This document shows, in pieces, positions 28,733 to 33,140 of a stretch of 64,000 bases of DNA. Origin of the DNA: Caballeronia sordidicola. Lineage in GTDB: Bacteria; Pseudomonadota; Gammaproteobacteria; Burkholderiales; Burkholderiaceae. How positions within the stretch are numbered: the stretch's first letter is position 1; each line of letters starts with the position of its first letter. A program made the translations under genes and the position numbers. The notes under the pieces are model-generated. The model searched no databases, was not told the origin of the DNA, and saw nothing but the letters and a program-made list of their open reading frames with translations. The stretch spans positions 1 through 64,000 of the forward strand of contig NZ_MTHB01000275.1 in assembly GCF_002220365.1 (NCBI RefSeq). Reading direction: 5' to 3'.

Positions 28733-29026
28733 TCAGTGATGTACCGGCACGGCGACAAGTTTTACCCCCAACGCAGCGGCAACTTTCTGGATGGTCTCAA
28801 AGCGAGGTTTTGCGCCCTCCGCTAGGGACTTGTACAGGCTTTCGCGTTGTACGCCTGCGTCAGAGGCAACTTTCGACATGCCGCGTGCTTTCACGACATC
28901 GGCAAGAGCCGATAGGAGAATGTCGGAATCGCCCGAGGCAAGCGCCTCGTTCAGATAGGCCGCTATGGCCTCTTCGCTATCGAGATAGTCGGATGCGTCG
29001 AAAGCCGAAATGTGAGTCGAGTTCAT
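28733..29026 (-). CDS. Antitoxin of a type II TA module (addiction antidote, XRE-like)
   Basis: A 97-residue protein of the probable addiction-module antidote family (COG3636-like). An N-terminal stretch (MNSTHISAFDASDYLDSEEA) precedes a helix-turn-helix at about residues 50-90 (ADVVKARGMSKVASDAGVQR, then ESLYKSL). It should neutralise the toxin upstream and bind DNA. Its ATG overlaps the toxin stop by four bases (ATGA), so translation is coupled. The ATG at 29026 was chosen over an upstream in-frame codon because of this overlap and the family start. Confidence 0.85.
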   Translation of the reverse strand: MNSTHISAFDASDYLDSEEAIAAYLNEALASGDSDILLSALADVVKARGMSKVASDAGVQRESLYKSLAEGAKPRFETIQKVAAALGVKLVAVPVHH

Positions 29027-29331
29027 TTTCGTTCCTGTTTGATTCGCTGCCATACGGCCTTCGCCCGGGCGATATCCGCTATCTGCCCTTGTTTGCTGCC
29101 ACCGGCCAATAGTAGATAAACCGTCAAGCCGTCACGCACGTAATACACGCGGTAGCCCGCGCCCGTATGGATCCGCATTTCCCACACGCTGCTGCCGACG
29201 TCGTGACAATCACCGAAATTTCCCAGCGCGGCGCGTTTGATTCGAACCAAGATGGCGGCTCTTGCTAACACATCAGTCACGCCCAACAGCCAGACCGAAA
29301 AGTCGTGCGTTTGATTGATTGTGTTCGTCAT
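29023..29331 (-). CDS. RelE/HigB-type toxin (addiction module killer protein)
   Basis: A 102-residue toxin of the RelE/ParE superfamily, addiction-module-killer subgroup (COG3657-like). It shows the central ARAAILVRIKRAALGNFGDC segment, the strand VWEMRIHTGAGYRVYYVR and the C-terminal LLLAGGSKQGQIADIARA. RelE-type members cut ribosome-bound mRNA; this is inferred. The toxin gene comes first, as in higBA modules, and is followed without a gap by the antitoxin. The promoter region 30-77 bp upstream contains a symmetric nested dyad likely bound by the complex. Confidence 0.88.
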   Translation of the reverse strand: MTNTINQTHDFSVWLLGVTDVLARAAILVRIKRAALGNFGDCHDVGSSVWEMRIHTGAGYRVYYVRDGLTVYLLLAGGSKQGQIADIARAKAVWQRIKQERK

Positions 29332-29360
29332 GCGTGTGGATCCCAGATAACGTTAAGTGG

Positions 29361-29408
29361 GATGCCTTGATGAACTGTATCCCATTGGATACGAAAATTC
29401 AAGGCATC
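29361..29408. promoter_or_regulatory. 48-bp nested dyad, probable TA operator
   Basis: Two inverted repeats share one exact centre. The outer arms are GATGCCTTGA (29361-29370) and TCAAGGCATC (29399-29408). The inner arms are GTATCC (29377-29382) and GGATAC (29387-29392). The gaps are 6, 4 and 6 bases. It lies between the TA pair and the divergent deaminase gene. Confidence 0.65.
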
Positions 29409-29424
29409 GATTGAATGGTGTGAT

Positions 29425-29438
29425 CTGATCTTGATCAG
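29425..29438. promoter_or_regulatory. 14-bp palindrome upstream of TA/deaminase
   Basis: CTGATC-TT-GATCAG is a second dyad 17 bp from the nested repeat, within the same divergent intergenic region. It may serve the deaminase or the TA promoter. Confidence 0.35.
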
Positions 29439-29626
29439 CCGGAAATCAGCATTGGTGTGATTCGAACGTAACGACACAGGCCAACCATTGGGAGAGTGGA
29501 GTTGCCACTGTGATCGGTCGCTCAAGCTTGCTGCAGTCGACCAAATGGCTAACGTGGCCGGCACACCGAAAATCGAGCTTTCTGTCCCGCTACAATCATC
29601 GAAACACTTGGCAAAAGGACAACCCC

Positions 29627-30901
29627 ATGGACCTGATCATTCGACGCGCGGCGCTTGCGGATTCCCGCGATCTGGTGGACATCGGCATCGAAGGCGGGCG
29701 TTTCACCGCGATCGAGCCGCGGCTCGCGGCCACCGCGCCGGAGGAGATCGATGCCGCGGGTTCTCTTGTCACCGCGCCGTTCGTCGATGCGCATTTCCAC
29801 ATGGACGCCACGCTGTCCTACGGTTTGCCGCGAGTGAACGCGTCGGGAACCCTGCTGGAAGGGATCGCCTTATGGGGTGAGCTGAAGCCCGGGTTGACAC
29901 AGGAAGCACTGGTCGACCGGGCGATGCAATATTGCGACTGGGCCGTTGCCCGCGGCCTGCTCGCGATTCGGTCGCACGTGGATGTCTGCGACCCGCGTCT
30001 GCTCGCCGTGCAAGCGCTGCTGGAAGTGAAGCGCCGGGTGAAGCCGTATCTGGACTTGCAACTTGTTGCGTTCCCGCAAGACGGCGTCTTGCGTAGCAAG
30101 GGCGCGTTCGAAAACCTGAAGCGCGCGATTTCGATGGGCGTCGATGTGGTCGGTGGAATTCCGCATTTCGAACGCACGATGGCCGATGGCGCCGAGTCCG
30201 TGCGCCTTCTCTGCGAGTTCGCGGCGCAGAAGGGGCTGCGCGTGGACATGCATTGCGATGAATCCGACGACCCCATGTCGCGCCATATAGAAACATTGGC
30301 GTCGGAGACACATCGGCTGGGGCTGCAGGGGCGTGTCACGGGTTCGCACCTCACGTCGATGCATTCCATGGACAACTATTACGTGAGCAAGCTGATCCCG
30401 TTGATCCGTGATTCCGGCGTGGCCGCGATCGCGAATCCGCTGATTAACATCACGCTTCAAGGCCGCGCCGATACCTACCCCAAGCGCCGAGGCATGACGC
30501 GCGTGCCGGAGTTGCTGGCAGCGGGGGTAGACGTAGCCTTCGGCCACGACTGCGTGATGGACCCGTGGTACAGCCTCGGCTCCGGCGACATGCTCGAAGT
30601 GGCGCACATGGGTTTGCACGTGGCGCAGATGACGGGCATCGATGCAATGCGTGCCGCGTTCGAAGCGGTGACGACGACGCCGGCGAGGATCCTGGGTATT
30701 GAAGGATATGGGATTGCCGTGGGCAACAACGCGGATTGCGTGGTACTGGACGCGCGCGATCCGGTTGAAGCGATTCGCTTGCGCGCGGCGCGAATAGCGG
30801 TGCTTCGTCGCGGCAAAGTGGTCAGCCGGGCGCCGGCGATGCGGGCGAAGCTCAGTCTGGAAGGGCGGCCGGAGGAAGTGAGTTTCCGGTTGAACCGATA
30901 A
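29627..30901 (+). CDS. CodA-family cytosine/5-methylcytosine deaminase
   Basis: A 424-residue metal-dependent amidohydrolase related to E. coli CodA. Metal/active-site motifs are His56-x-His58 (DAHFHMD), Gln151 (FPQDG), His209 with Glu212 (MHCDES), His241/His246 and Asp308 (FGHDC). The residue after Asp308 is Cys309, where E. coli CodA has Asp314, the residue that excludes 5-substituted cytosines. CodA homologues lacking that Asp were reported, as I recall, to deaminate 5-methylcytosine to thymine; this one may do so too. Start 29627 follows a ribosome site (AAAGGAC). It is divergent from the TA pair. No permease gene lies next to it. Confidence 0.85.
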   Translation: MDLIIRRAALADSRDLVDIGIEGGRFTAIEPRLAATAPEEIDAAGSLVTAPFVDAHFHMDATLSYGLPRVNASGTLLEGIALWGELKPGLTQEALVDRAMQYCDWAVARGLLAIRSHVDVCDPRLLAVQALLEVKRRVKPYLDLQLVAFPQDGVLRSKGAFENLKRAISMGVDVVGGIPHFERTMADGAESVRLLCEFAAQKGLRVDMHCDESDDPMSRHIETLASETHRLGLQGRVTGSHLTSMHSMDNYYVSKLIPLIRDSGVAAIANPLINITLQGRADTYPKRRGMTRVPELLAAGVDVAFGHDCVMDPWYSLGSGDMLEVAHMGLHVAQMTGIDAMRAAFEAVTTTPARILGIEGYGIAVGNNADCVVLDARDPVEAIRLRAARIAVLRRGKVVSRAPAMRAKLSLEGRPEEVSFRLNR

Positions 30902-30926
30902 GTCGAACCCTCTATATAACGCGCAT

Positions 30927-30958
30927 AAAAAAACCGTTCCAACGCGAGTTGGAACGGC
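30927..30958 (-). terminator. Terminator of oligopeptidase A gene
   Basis: A perfect 10-bp stem (CCGTTCCAAC/GTTGGAACGG) with a GCGA loop; on the minus strand it ends in seven Ts. It can also receive transcription from the deaminase gene. Confidence 0.88.
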
Positions 30959-30998
30959 CATCTTCAATCATTAAAACAGCATGGACGCTGTCATAACC

Positions 30999-33140
30999 TC
31001 AATGCGCCGCCTCCGGCGACATGCCGTTATGCCGCAACAGCGCATCGATATTCGGTTCCCGTCCGCGGAACGCCTTGAACGAGTCCATCGCCGGGCGGCT
31101 GCCGCCCACTTCAAGAATTTCGCGACGATACCGAGTGCCCGTTTTTGCGTCGAGCACTGATCCACCGCCAAGCTTCGCGGCCTCCTCAAACGCGGCATAC
31201 GCATCCGCCGACAGCACTTCCGCCCACTTGTAGCTGTAGTACCCCGCGGCATATCCGCCGGAGAAAATGTGCGTGAAGGTATTAGTCCAGCGGGAGAAGG
31301 GCGCTTGCGGCACAACATGGAAACGCTCGTTGATCTCGCGCGCAAAGTCGTTCACGTTCGTCGCGCCAGCCGGATCGTAGTCGCTGTGAAGCTGGATATC
31401 GAACATGGACAGCACGATCTGGCGCAATGTGCCCAAACCGCTCTGGAAGTTCTTCGCGGCGAGCATCTTGTCGAACAGCTCGCGCGGCAACGTAGCGCCC
31501 GTATCCACGTGAGCGGACATGTCGGTGAGCACGTCCCACTCCCAGCAGAAGTTCTCCATGAATTGCGACGGCAGTTCGACCGCATCCCACTCCACGCCGT
31601 TGATACCCGATACCCCAAGTTCATCGACGCGCGTCAGCATGTGATGCAGGCCGTGCCCGAATTCATGGAACAGCGTAATGACTTCGTCGTGCGTAAAACA
31701 CGCAGGCTTGCCGCCGACAGGCGCGGAGAAGTTACAGGTCAGATACGCGACGGGCGTCTGCACGCCGCCTTCACGGCGTTTGTGCCGCGAGCGGGCGTCG
31801 TCCATCCAGGCGCCGCCGCGTTTGCCTTCGCGCGCATACAGGTCCAGATAGAACTGCGCGACGAGCGTTCCGTCCTTGTTTTCAACGCGGAAAAAGCGCA
31901 CTTCCGGATTCCAGACGGCAGCTTCATCTCGACGAATGGATACGCCAAAGAGCGTTTCCGTGACCTTGAATAAACCCTTCAGTACGGCCTCTTGCGGAAA
32001 ATACTGCTTCACTTCGTTTTCCGAGAACGAATAACGCTGCTGGCGCAGGCGCTCCGCGGCGAAGGTCGAGTCCCACGGCTGCAATTCCGGCATCCCGAGT
32101 TCGGTCGCGGCGAATGCACGCAACTCCATCCAGTCGCGCTCGCCGTGCGGGCGCGCGCGCACGGCCAGGTCCTCCAGAAACGCGACCACCTGTGCCGGCG
32201 ACTCCGCCATCTTCGGCGCAAGTGATACCTCGGCGAAGTTCTGATAGCCGAGCGCGTGCGCTTCTTCGGCACGCAGCTTCAATTGTTCGACTACATTCGC
32301 CGTATTGTCCCAGTCAGCCTTGCCGTTGCCGTAGTTCGGGCCCAGTTCGGACGCACGCGTCACATAGGCGCGATACATCGCCTCGCGCAATGGCCGATGT
32401 TCGGCGTACTGCATGACCGGGAAATACGACGGGAAATGCAGCGTGAACTTCCAGCCCTCGCGGCTTTCTTTCTGCGCGGCTTCGCGCGCCGCTTCGATCA
32501 CGTCTTCCGGCAAACCAGCGAGTTCACTTTCGTTGGTCACGACATACGAAAACGCGTTGGTGGCATCGAGGACATGATCAGAGAATGCCTTCGATAACGC
32601 CGCCTGTTCTTCCTGAACGCGTGCAAAACGGGGTTTTTTGTCTTCGGGCAACTCGGCGCCCGACAAACGGAAACCTCGCAACTCGTTGCTGAGCATTTTC
32701 TTCTGCTCGACAGAAAGCGATGCGTGTTCTTCGCTCGCCGCAATTGCCTTGTATTTTTCATAGAGCGCCAGATTCTGTCCGACGCTTGCGGAAAACTCCG
32801 TCACGCGCGGCAAATTCTCGGCGTGGGCGGCACGCAGCTCGGGGGTATCGGCGACGGCATTCAGGTGGCCGATCACGCCCCACGCACGCGATAGCCTTTC
32901 GCTCGCGCGCTCCACGCTTTCGACTATGTCTTGCCAGGTGGCGGGTGTTTCAGGCGCGCTGGCGTGATCGACGGCGGCTTTTGCATCGGCGAGCAAGACG
33001 TCGAGCGCCGGCGTCACGTGTTCCGGTTTGATGTCGTTGAAACGGGGCAGGTCGGAGAAGTCGAGCAGGGGGTTGTCTGGGACTTGGGTCTGAGCCTGAT
33101 TCGCTTGGTTCGCGGTATTCGATGGTGTCGAACTGGACAT
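30999..33140 (-). CDS. prlC: Oligopeptidase A (M3 metallopeptidase)
   Basis: A 713-residue cytoplasmic zinc oligopeptidase. The metal motif HEFGHGLHHM lies near residue 494, with a downstream glutamate (VEWDAVELPSQFMENFCWE). The N-terminal half is helical and typical of M3 peptidases. The enzyme degrades short peptides, including cleaved signal peptides. The start at 33140 follows GGGAGAG; an alternative 20 codons upstream is less likely. folD lies upstream on the same strand across about 244 bp. Confidence 0.95.
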   Translation of the reverse strand: MSSSTPSNTANQANQAQTQVPDNPLLDFSDLPRFNDIKPEHVTPALDVLLADAKAAVDHASAPETPATWQDIVESVERASERLSRAWGVIGHLNAVADTPELRAAHAENLPRVTEFSASVGQNLALYEKYKAIAASEEHASLSVEQKKMLSNELRGFRLSGAELPEDKKPRFARVQEEQAALSKAFSDHVLDATNAFSYVVTNESELAGLPEDVIEAAREAAQKESREGWKFTLHFPSYFPVMQYAEHRPLREAMYRAYVTRASELGPNYGNGKADWDNTANVVEQLKLRAEEAHALGYQNFAEVSLAPKMAESPAQVVAFLEDLAVRARPHGERDWMELRAFAATELGMPELQPWDSTFAAERLRQQRYSFSENEVKQYFPQEAVLKGLFKVTETLFGVSIRRDEAAVWNPEVRFFRVENKDGTLVAQFYLDLYAREGKRGGAWMDDARSRHKRREGGVQTPVAYLTCNFSAPVGGKPACFTHDEVITLFHEFGHGLHHMLTRVDELGVSGINGVEWDAVELPSQFMENFCWEWDVLTDMSAHVDTGATLPRELFDKMLAAKNFQSGLGTLRQIVLSMFDIQLHSDYDPAGATNVNDFAREINERFHVVPQAPFSRWTNTFTHIFSGGYAAGYYSYKWAEVLSADAYAAFEEAAKLGGGSVLDAKTGTRYRREILEVGGSRPAMDSFKAFRGREPNIDALLRHNGMSPEAAH

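Follow-up and report, generated by a model that had tools for sequence, protein, structure and literature searches.

A CodA-type amidohydrolase of Caballeronia sordidicola with cysteine at the gatekeeper position, a probable broad cytosine/5-methylcytosine deaminase

Characterised relatives of the Caballeronia enzyme

Some relatives of the enzyme described here are already known to convert 5-methylcytosine to thymine. Three proteins, Rsp0341, Kpn00632 and NCgl0075, reportedly deaminate this base (Hitchcock et al. 2014); a literature search for the three names returned a mention of Kpn00632 alone. Kpn00632 of Klebsiella pneumoniae (PDB 4R7W/4R85/4R88) belongs to the CodA family, has the same eight active-site residues as the Caballeronia protein and lacks the aspartate found at position 314 of the Escherichia coli enzyme CodA. 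According to PMC6186785, CodA has practically no activity on 5-methylcytosine, CodA with Asp replaced by Ala at this position gains the activity, and the 5-methylcytosine deaminase Kpn00632 has Ser there; in PMC13054789, 5-methylcytosine deaminase is counted among the enzymes that prefer the alkylated base.

The gene studied here lies on contig NZ_MTHB01000275.1 of Caballeronia sordidicola, within a stretch of 64,000 nucleotides that was analysed as a whole and is referred to as the window. Its product matched the NCBIfam model NF005748 (PRK07572, ‘cytosine deaminase’) over residues 1-422 with 802.7 bits against a curated cut-off of 438, and it scored 447.2 bits with the E. coli CodA-type model NF006685 (PRK09230), under the curated cut-off of 483; Pfam assigned Amidohydro_3 and Amidohydro_1. 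By phmmer against the PDB, the nearest solved structures were those of E. coli CodA (1k6w and its variants, 369-376 bits, with 374 for 1k6w), and Kpn00632 (4r7w) matched with 338 bits. CodA, which is annotated as a cytosine/isoguanine deaminase, is 43% identical to the window protein and shares its eight active-site residues, but it has Asp314 where the window protein has Cys309, and the window protein stays below the cut-off of the CodA-type model. The N-isopropylammelide amidohydrolase AtzC (2qt3, 4cqb) is from the same superfamily but is a far weaker match than CodA (171 bits). The sequence-only reading had expected that an automated pipeline would name the protein plainly a cytosine deaminase; NCBIfam does so, whereas many plasmid-borne relatives are recorded as ‘amidohydrolase family protein’ and nothing more specific.

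The gene and its active site

The reading frame is unbroken from the ATG at 29627 to the stop codon (Table 1). A mechanical ORF call opens farther upstream, at GTG 29510; we prefer the ATG because a probable ribosome-binding site precedes it closely, and because 51 of the 55 same-genus matches, the window included, start at the same residue. A promoter and terminator scan of 29320-31010 found no site on the strand of the deaminase gene, while the minus strand gave one promoter-like and two terminator-like sites, counts close to chance. Since glnA and ntrC lie upstream of the deaminase gene, we also looked for a sigma-54 promoter; none matched within 25.9-35.9 kb, that is, around the gene, and the 22 matches across the window stood below the chance mean of 33.8, so a nitrogen-regulated sigma-54 promoter was rejected.

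Table 1. Positions in the window of the deaminase gene, its active-site residues and the neighbouring toxin-antitoxin pair
Feature	Positions	Strand	Basis
Type II toxin-antitoxin pair (TIGR02684 antidote, TIGR02683 RelE/ParE toxin), between exodeoxyribonuclease III and deaminase gene	28733-29331	-	
Probable ribosome-binding site (AAGGA), 7 nt upstream of ATG 29627	29615..29619	+	read from sequence
CodA-type amidohydrolase, Cys subfamily (NCBIfam NF005748/PRK07572), 424 aa + stop	29627..30901	+	frame, alignment, NCBIfam
H56 and H58 (HFH), aligned with H61 and H63, metal ligands of CodA	29792..29800	+	alignment
Q151, counterpart of CodA Q156	30077..30079	+	alignment
H209 to E212 (HCDE), aligned with H214 and E217 of CodA	30251..30262	+	alignment
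H241, counterpart of CodA H246	30347..30349	+	alignment
Active-site motif FGHDCVMD, residues 305-312, including metal ligand D308	30539..30562	+	translation, alignment
Cys309, aligned with Asp314 of CodA and with Ser of Kpn00632	30551..30553	+	alignment

The motif FGHDCVMD with Asp308 and Cys309, from which the whole question had arisen, was recovered in the translation with the same numbering. When aligned by phmmer, GHDCVMDPWY of the window protein lay on GHDDVFDPWY of CodA with no gap around the motif, so a misalignment of Cys309 was rejected; D308 and W314 match CodA D313 and W319. At the position of Asp314, Kpn00632 (PDB 4R7W, AQDSIQDPWY) has Ser, and Ala, Ser or Gly is found in three PDB chains of CodA itself. 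Q156 of CodA is a substrate contact, and the metal-ligand roles are given in part in PMC6186785. All eight residues compared (H56, H58, Q151, H209, E212, H241, D308 and W314) were identical in 52/52 Cys, 23/23 Asp and 23/23 Ser rows of the alignment; these groups were defined by the identity of residue 309, so the 100% conservation of the gate residue within them is circular, while that of the other eight is independent of the grouping.

We propose that the window protein is probably a CodA-family metal-dependent deaminase of broad cytosine/5-methylcytosine specificity that feeds pyrimidine degradation. The enzyme would remove the 4-amino group from cytosine-type bases, and with Cys replacing the gatekeeper Asp the pocket beside ring C5 would probably be roomier and uncharged, in which case 5-methylcytosine could be accommodated as well as cytosine, yielding thymine and uracil. 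Both products could be broken down by a reductive pyrimidine pathway whose genes lie elsewhere in the genome; alternatively, thymine might be recovered via thymidine phosphorylase. The conversion of 5-methylcytosine to thymine is probable because the residue thought to exclude 5-methylcytosine is absent. That a homologue without this aspartate should act on 5-methylcytosine had been argued by the sequence-only reading, and the argument agrees with what PMC6186785 gives for the Ser of Kpn00632 and for the Asp to Ala change in CodA, as well as with the Cys of a Cereibacter sphaeroides member of the same clade. The role of the residue is thus taken from published work on relatives, from which 5-methylcytosine turnover by the window enzyme is a good inference.

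A subfamily with cysteine at the gate

Matches at E<=1e-80 were present in 55 of 58 same-genus genomes, counting the window's own, a few of them being partial, and Cys stood at the gate in all 37 other same-genus copies that were read, of 54 found. The same held for 80/80 relatives from genome_contigs, the best 80 of at least 583 confirmed; because these were ranked against a Rhodovulum relative, the set leans to close kin. A less biased view was obtained with an evenly drawn phylum sample, where 102 of 398 genomes matched and all 112 matches listed were read, the window included. At 60% identity or more Cys occupied the gate in 47/47 matches, the 41 matches at 40-50% identity consisted of 21 with Asp and 20 with Ser, and below 40% identity the residue was Asn in 24/24.

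In a quick tree of 108 rows, which omitted 14 of the 24 Asn rows, the 52 Cys rows made up one side of a branch with a support of 97. A more careful tree was then built from 63 of these rows, leaving out the gate column of the alignment, and its 20 Cys rows formed one clade (support 95/92). The Ser protein of Terrarubrum was sister to this clade, CodA, Kpn00632 and the Ser protein of Natrinema fell on the opposite side, and neither the Asp nor the Ser rows were single clades, requiring two and three changes, respectively; the deep branching order is unsure because several branches are long. Judged from these alignments and trees, Cys marks an old subfamily, in which it is the norm and no peculiarity of the window gene. 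The window gene adds a member to an already known enzyme type, and its use is mainly as a re-annotation rule: the split of Cys, Ser and Asp by clade offers a simple guide both for re-annotation and for the choice of enzymes to assay.

It could be argued that the gene is decaying and that Cys309 arose in it neutrally or by chance, the more so as the match is shortened in several same-genus genomes. However, Cys was found in every subfamily member read and these members form one clade, and the dN/dS of the gene was 0.031-0.088 (median 0.068) in 29 same-genus pairs, from which it follows that the gene is maintained under purifying selection; an origin by chance or decay is hardly credible and was rejected.

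Two observations on distribution may be recorded. Partial deaminase matches occurred in the same-genus genomes G005, G019, G026, G027, G050 and G056 (loci L274-L279), five of which are of 4.2 Mb or less, and the partial matches in small genomes suggest loss during genome reduction. In another Burkholderiaceae genus (g11), 14 genomes matched at just 44-46% identity, and the two that were read (L231, L266) were of the Ser type, resembling Kpn00632.

As to how the gate evolved, one doubtful reading is that the open pocket with Ser or Cys is the older state and the Asp gate of CodA a later narrowing, and that the Cys clade represents proteobacterial scavenging of outside cytosine and 5-methylcytosine, with many members having their own BMP-type ABC importer. 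The open pocket would be older in this reading because Ser stands at the base of both branches, in Terrarubrum and in Natrinema, both of them long branches.

The window protein falls outside the clade of Kpn00632, which has Ser and not Cys (AQDS as against GHDC) and lies nearer to CodA; two plasmid-borne Ser-type homologues sit with codB and a PucR-type regulator. The closer comparison is with the genome of C. sphaeroides 2.4.1 (G615, a Rhodobacteraceae genome of 4.6 Mb in 7 contigs, in which a 6-kb stretch of one contig is 99.9% identical to plasmid records of this strain). It holds one match at E<=1e-60, with the motif GWGQDCVLDPWY, that is, with Cys at the gate position, and this match falls inside the Cys clade of the careful tree; on the map, the reaction-centre genes lie about 90 kb away. 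With pufM as RSP_0256, RSP_0341 would be expected near the match at about one gene per kb. From its uniqueness, the map distance and the expected locus tags, the gene is very probably Rsp0341 of Rhodobacter (Cereibacter) sphaeroides, although no record read carries the tag. It shares the Cys and the clade with the window gene but follows two ORFs resembling ABC permeases, whereas the window gene is solitary. Since the Cys clade is separate from that of Kpn00632, the transfer of function to the window protein depends on a single residue together with the probable identity of the C. sphaeroides gene with Rsp0341.

Neighbouring genes and physiological role

No transporter or pyrimidine gene stands beside the deaminase gene in the window. 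Its upstream neighbours, on the other strand, are a HigBA-like toxin-antitoxin pair (TIGR02684, TIGR02683) and exodeoxyribonuclease III; downstream, also on the other strand, lies an oligopeptidase A-like gene (806.8 bits, under the model cut-off of 927). Among 29 same-genus loci, with flanks covered to about 1.5 kb, the oligopeptidase A-like gene recurred in 26; 10 had the antitoxin and 8 the toxin.

Among relatives, 44 of 88 loci (89 less one, two of the 88 being of the Ser type) had a BMP-type binding protein together with an ABC ATPase and a permease close to the deaminase gene, and in the other half this importer set was not seen. Other neighbours were upp in 7 loci, an amidase in 5, a TetR regulator with a YcdC-like C-terminus in 4 and a PRK07198-type GTP cyclohydrolase II in 3; gene families were assigned from a single representative of each cluster, the nearest permease was taken from the annotation, and rough ORF calling undercounts neighbours, some annotated amidases and permeases having been missed. 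Some Rhodobacteraceae loci contained a different ABC type, with an SBP_bac_8 binding protein, in place of the BMP type, and a locus of Azospirillum contained URC4/urg3, upp, BMP and permease genes. The importer, upp and URC neighbours therefore link the subfamily to pyrimidine bases, both their import and their degradation, uracil being one of the products.

The same importer, accompanied in some loci by an amidase, would also suit a deaminase for another amino-heterocycle, such as isoguanine or creatinine, brought in by the BMP-type ABC system. The isoguanine annotation of E. coli CodA and a creatininase adjoining one Ser-type relative are in line with this, as is a review figure legend that names cytosine deaminase among the creatinine-breakdown enzymes (PMC11764249). 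We nevertheless consider such a substrate quite unlikely, given that eight of eight compared CodA active-site residues are kept and that upp and URC genes in several relatives point to pyrimidines.

Returning to the proposed broad cytosine/5-methylcytosine deaminase, we found genes for the predicted downstream steps in its own genome, which measures 9.7 Mb in 307 contigs; with an estimated contamination of 9.5%, individual contigs could be of foreign origin. A single run on contig C44 contains a hydantoinase/carbamoylase-type amidase, a PreT-like protein, PreA (748 bits), an NCS1 transporter and a dihydropyrimidinase (581 bits). The PreT-like protein matched its NAD(P)-binding family below the cut-off. 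Thymidine phosphorylase is encoded on another contig (C59). A second close CodA homologue in this genome was rejected, as the next match is 30% identical, with Gly after the Asp, and the third is a stretch of 62 residues.

The enzyme may also be, in physiological terms, a plain cytosine deaminase producing uracil, with any turnover of 5-methylcytosine incidental to an open pocket. This reading shares its chemistry with the one we prefer and differs in purpose, so the two are not mutually exclusive, and we regard it as a serious possibility, somewhat behind the broad deaminase. It is favoured by the relatives that sit with uracil phosphoribosyltransferase and uracil-using URC-type genes, by the mere 30% identity of the next CodA homologue, and by the C5-cytosine methyltransferase family PF00145, which had no match in the own genome while 10 of 14 control genomes matched. 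Against it, the gate was never Asp among the subfamily members read (47/47 in the phylum sample and 80/80 in the best 80 of at least 583), and the pathway of the own genome is of the reductive type, which also handles thymine, whereas the URC-type GTP cyclohydrolase PRK07198 was not found there (best 34 bits against a cut-off of 403, which 0 of 14 control genomes pass).

The PF00145 result leaves no evident internal source of 5-methylcytosine, which would probably come from outside. For the broad deaminase, then, the earlier suggestion of a probable 5-methylcytosine deaminase stands as far as the residue and the clade go, but neither a preference for 5-methylcytosine nor a dedicated salvage role is supported, considering the missing PF00145 match and the general pyrimidine and uracil use among the relatives' neighbours. 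Activity of the Cys subfamily on 5-methylcytosine, if it holds, would allow many proteobacteria, among them soil, plant-associated and marine ones, to draw on a methylated base from outside DNA. Characterised 5-methylcytosine deaminases activate 5-fluorocytosine, and enzymes of the Cys subfamily should then do so too.

Two further loci of the own genome contain BMP-type genes. On C32 (76563-79550, L134), two biuret amidohydrolase-like genes, scoring 414.8 and 247.4 bits against the NF050097 cut-off of 370, lie near a BMP-type binding-protein gene, possibly as part of a biuret or triazine-related nitrogen pathway. On C183 (L135), a second BMP-type gene and ABC-like ORFs lie near an 8-oxoguanine deaminase-like gene (NF006055, 763.9 bits against 532), and this transporter type is thus found beside another base deaminase.
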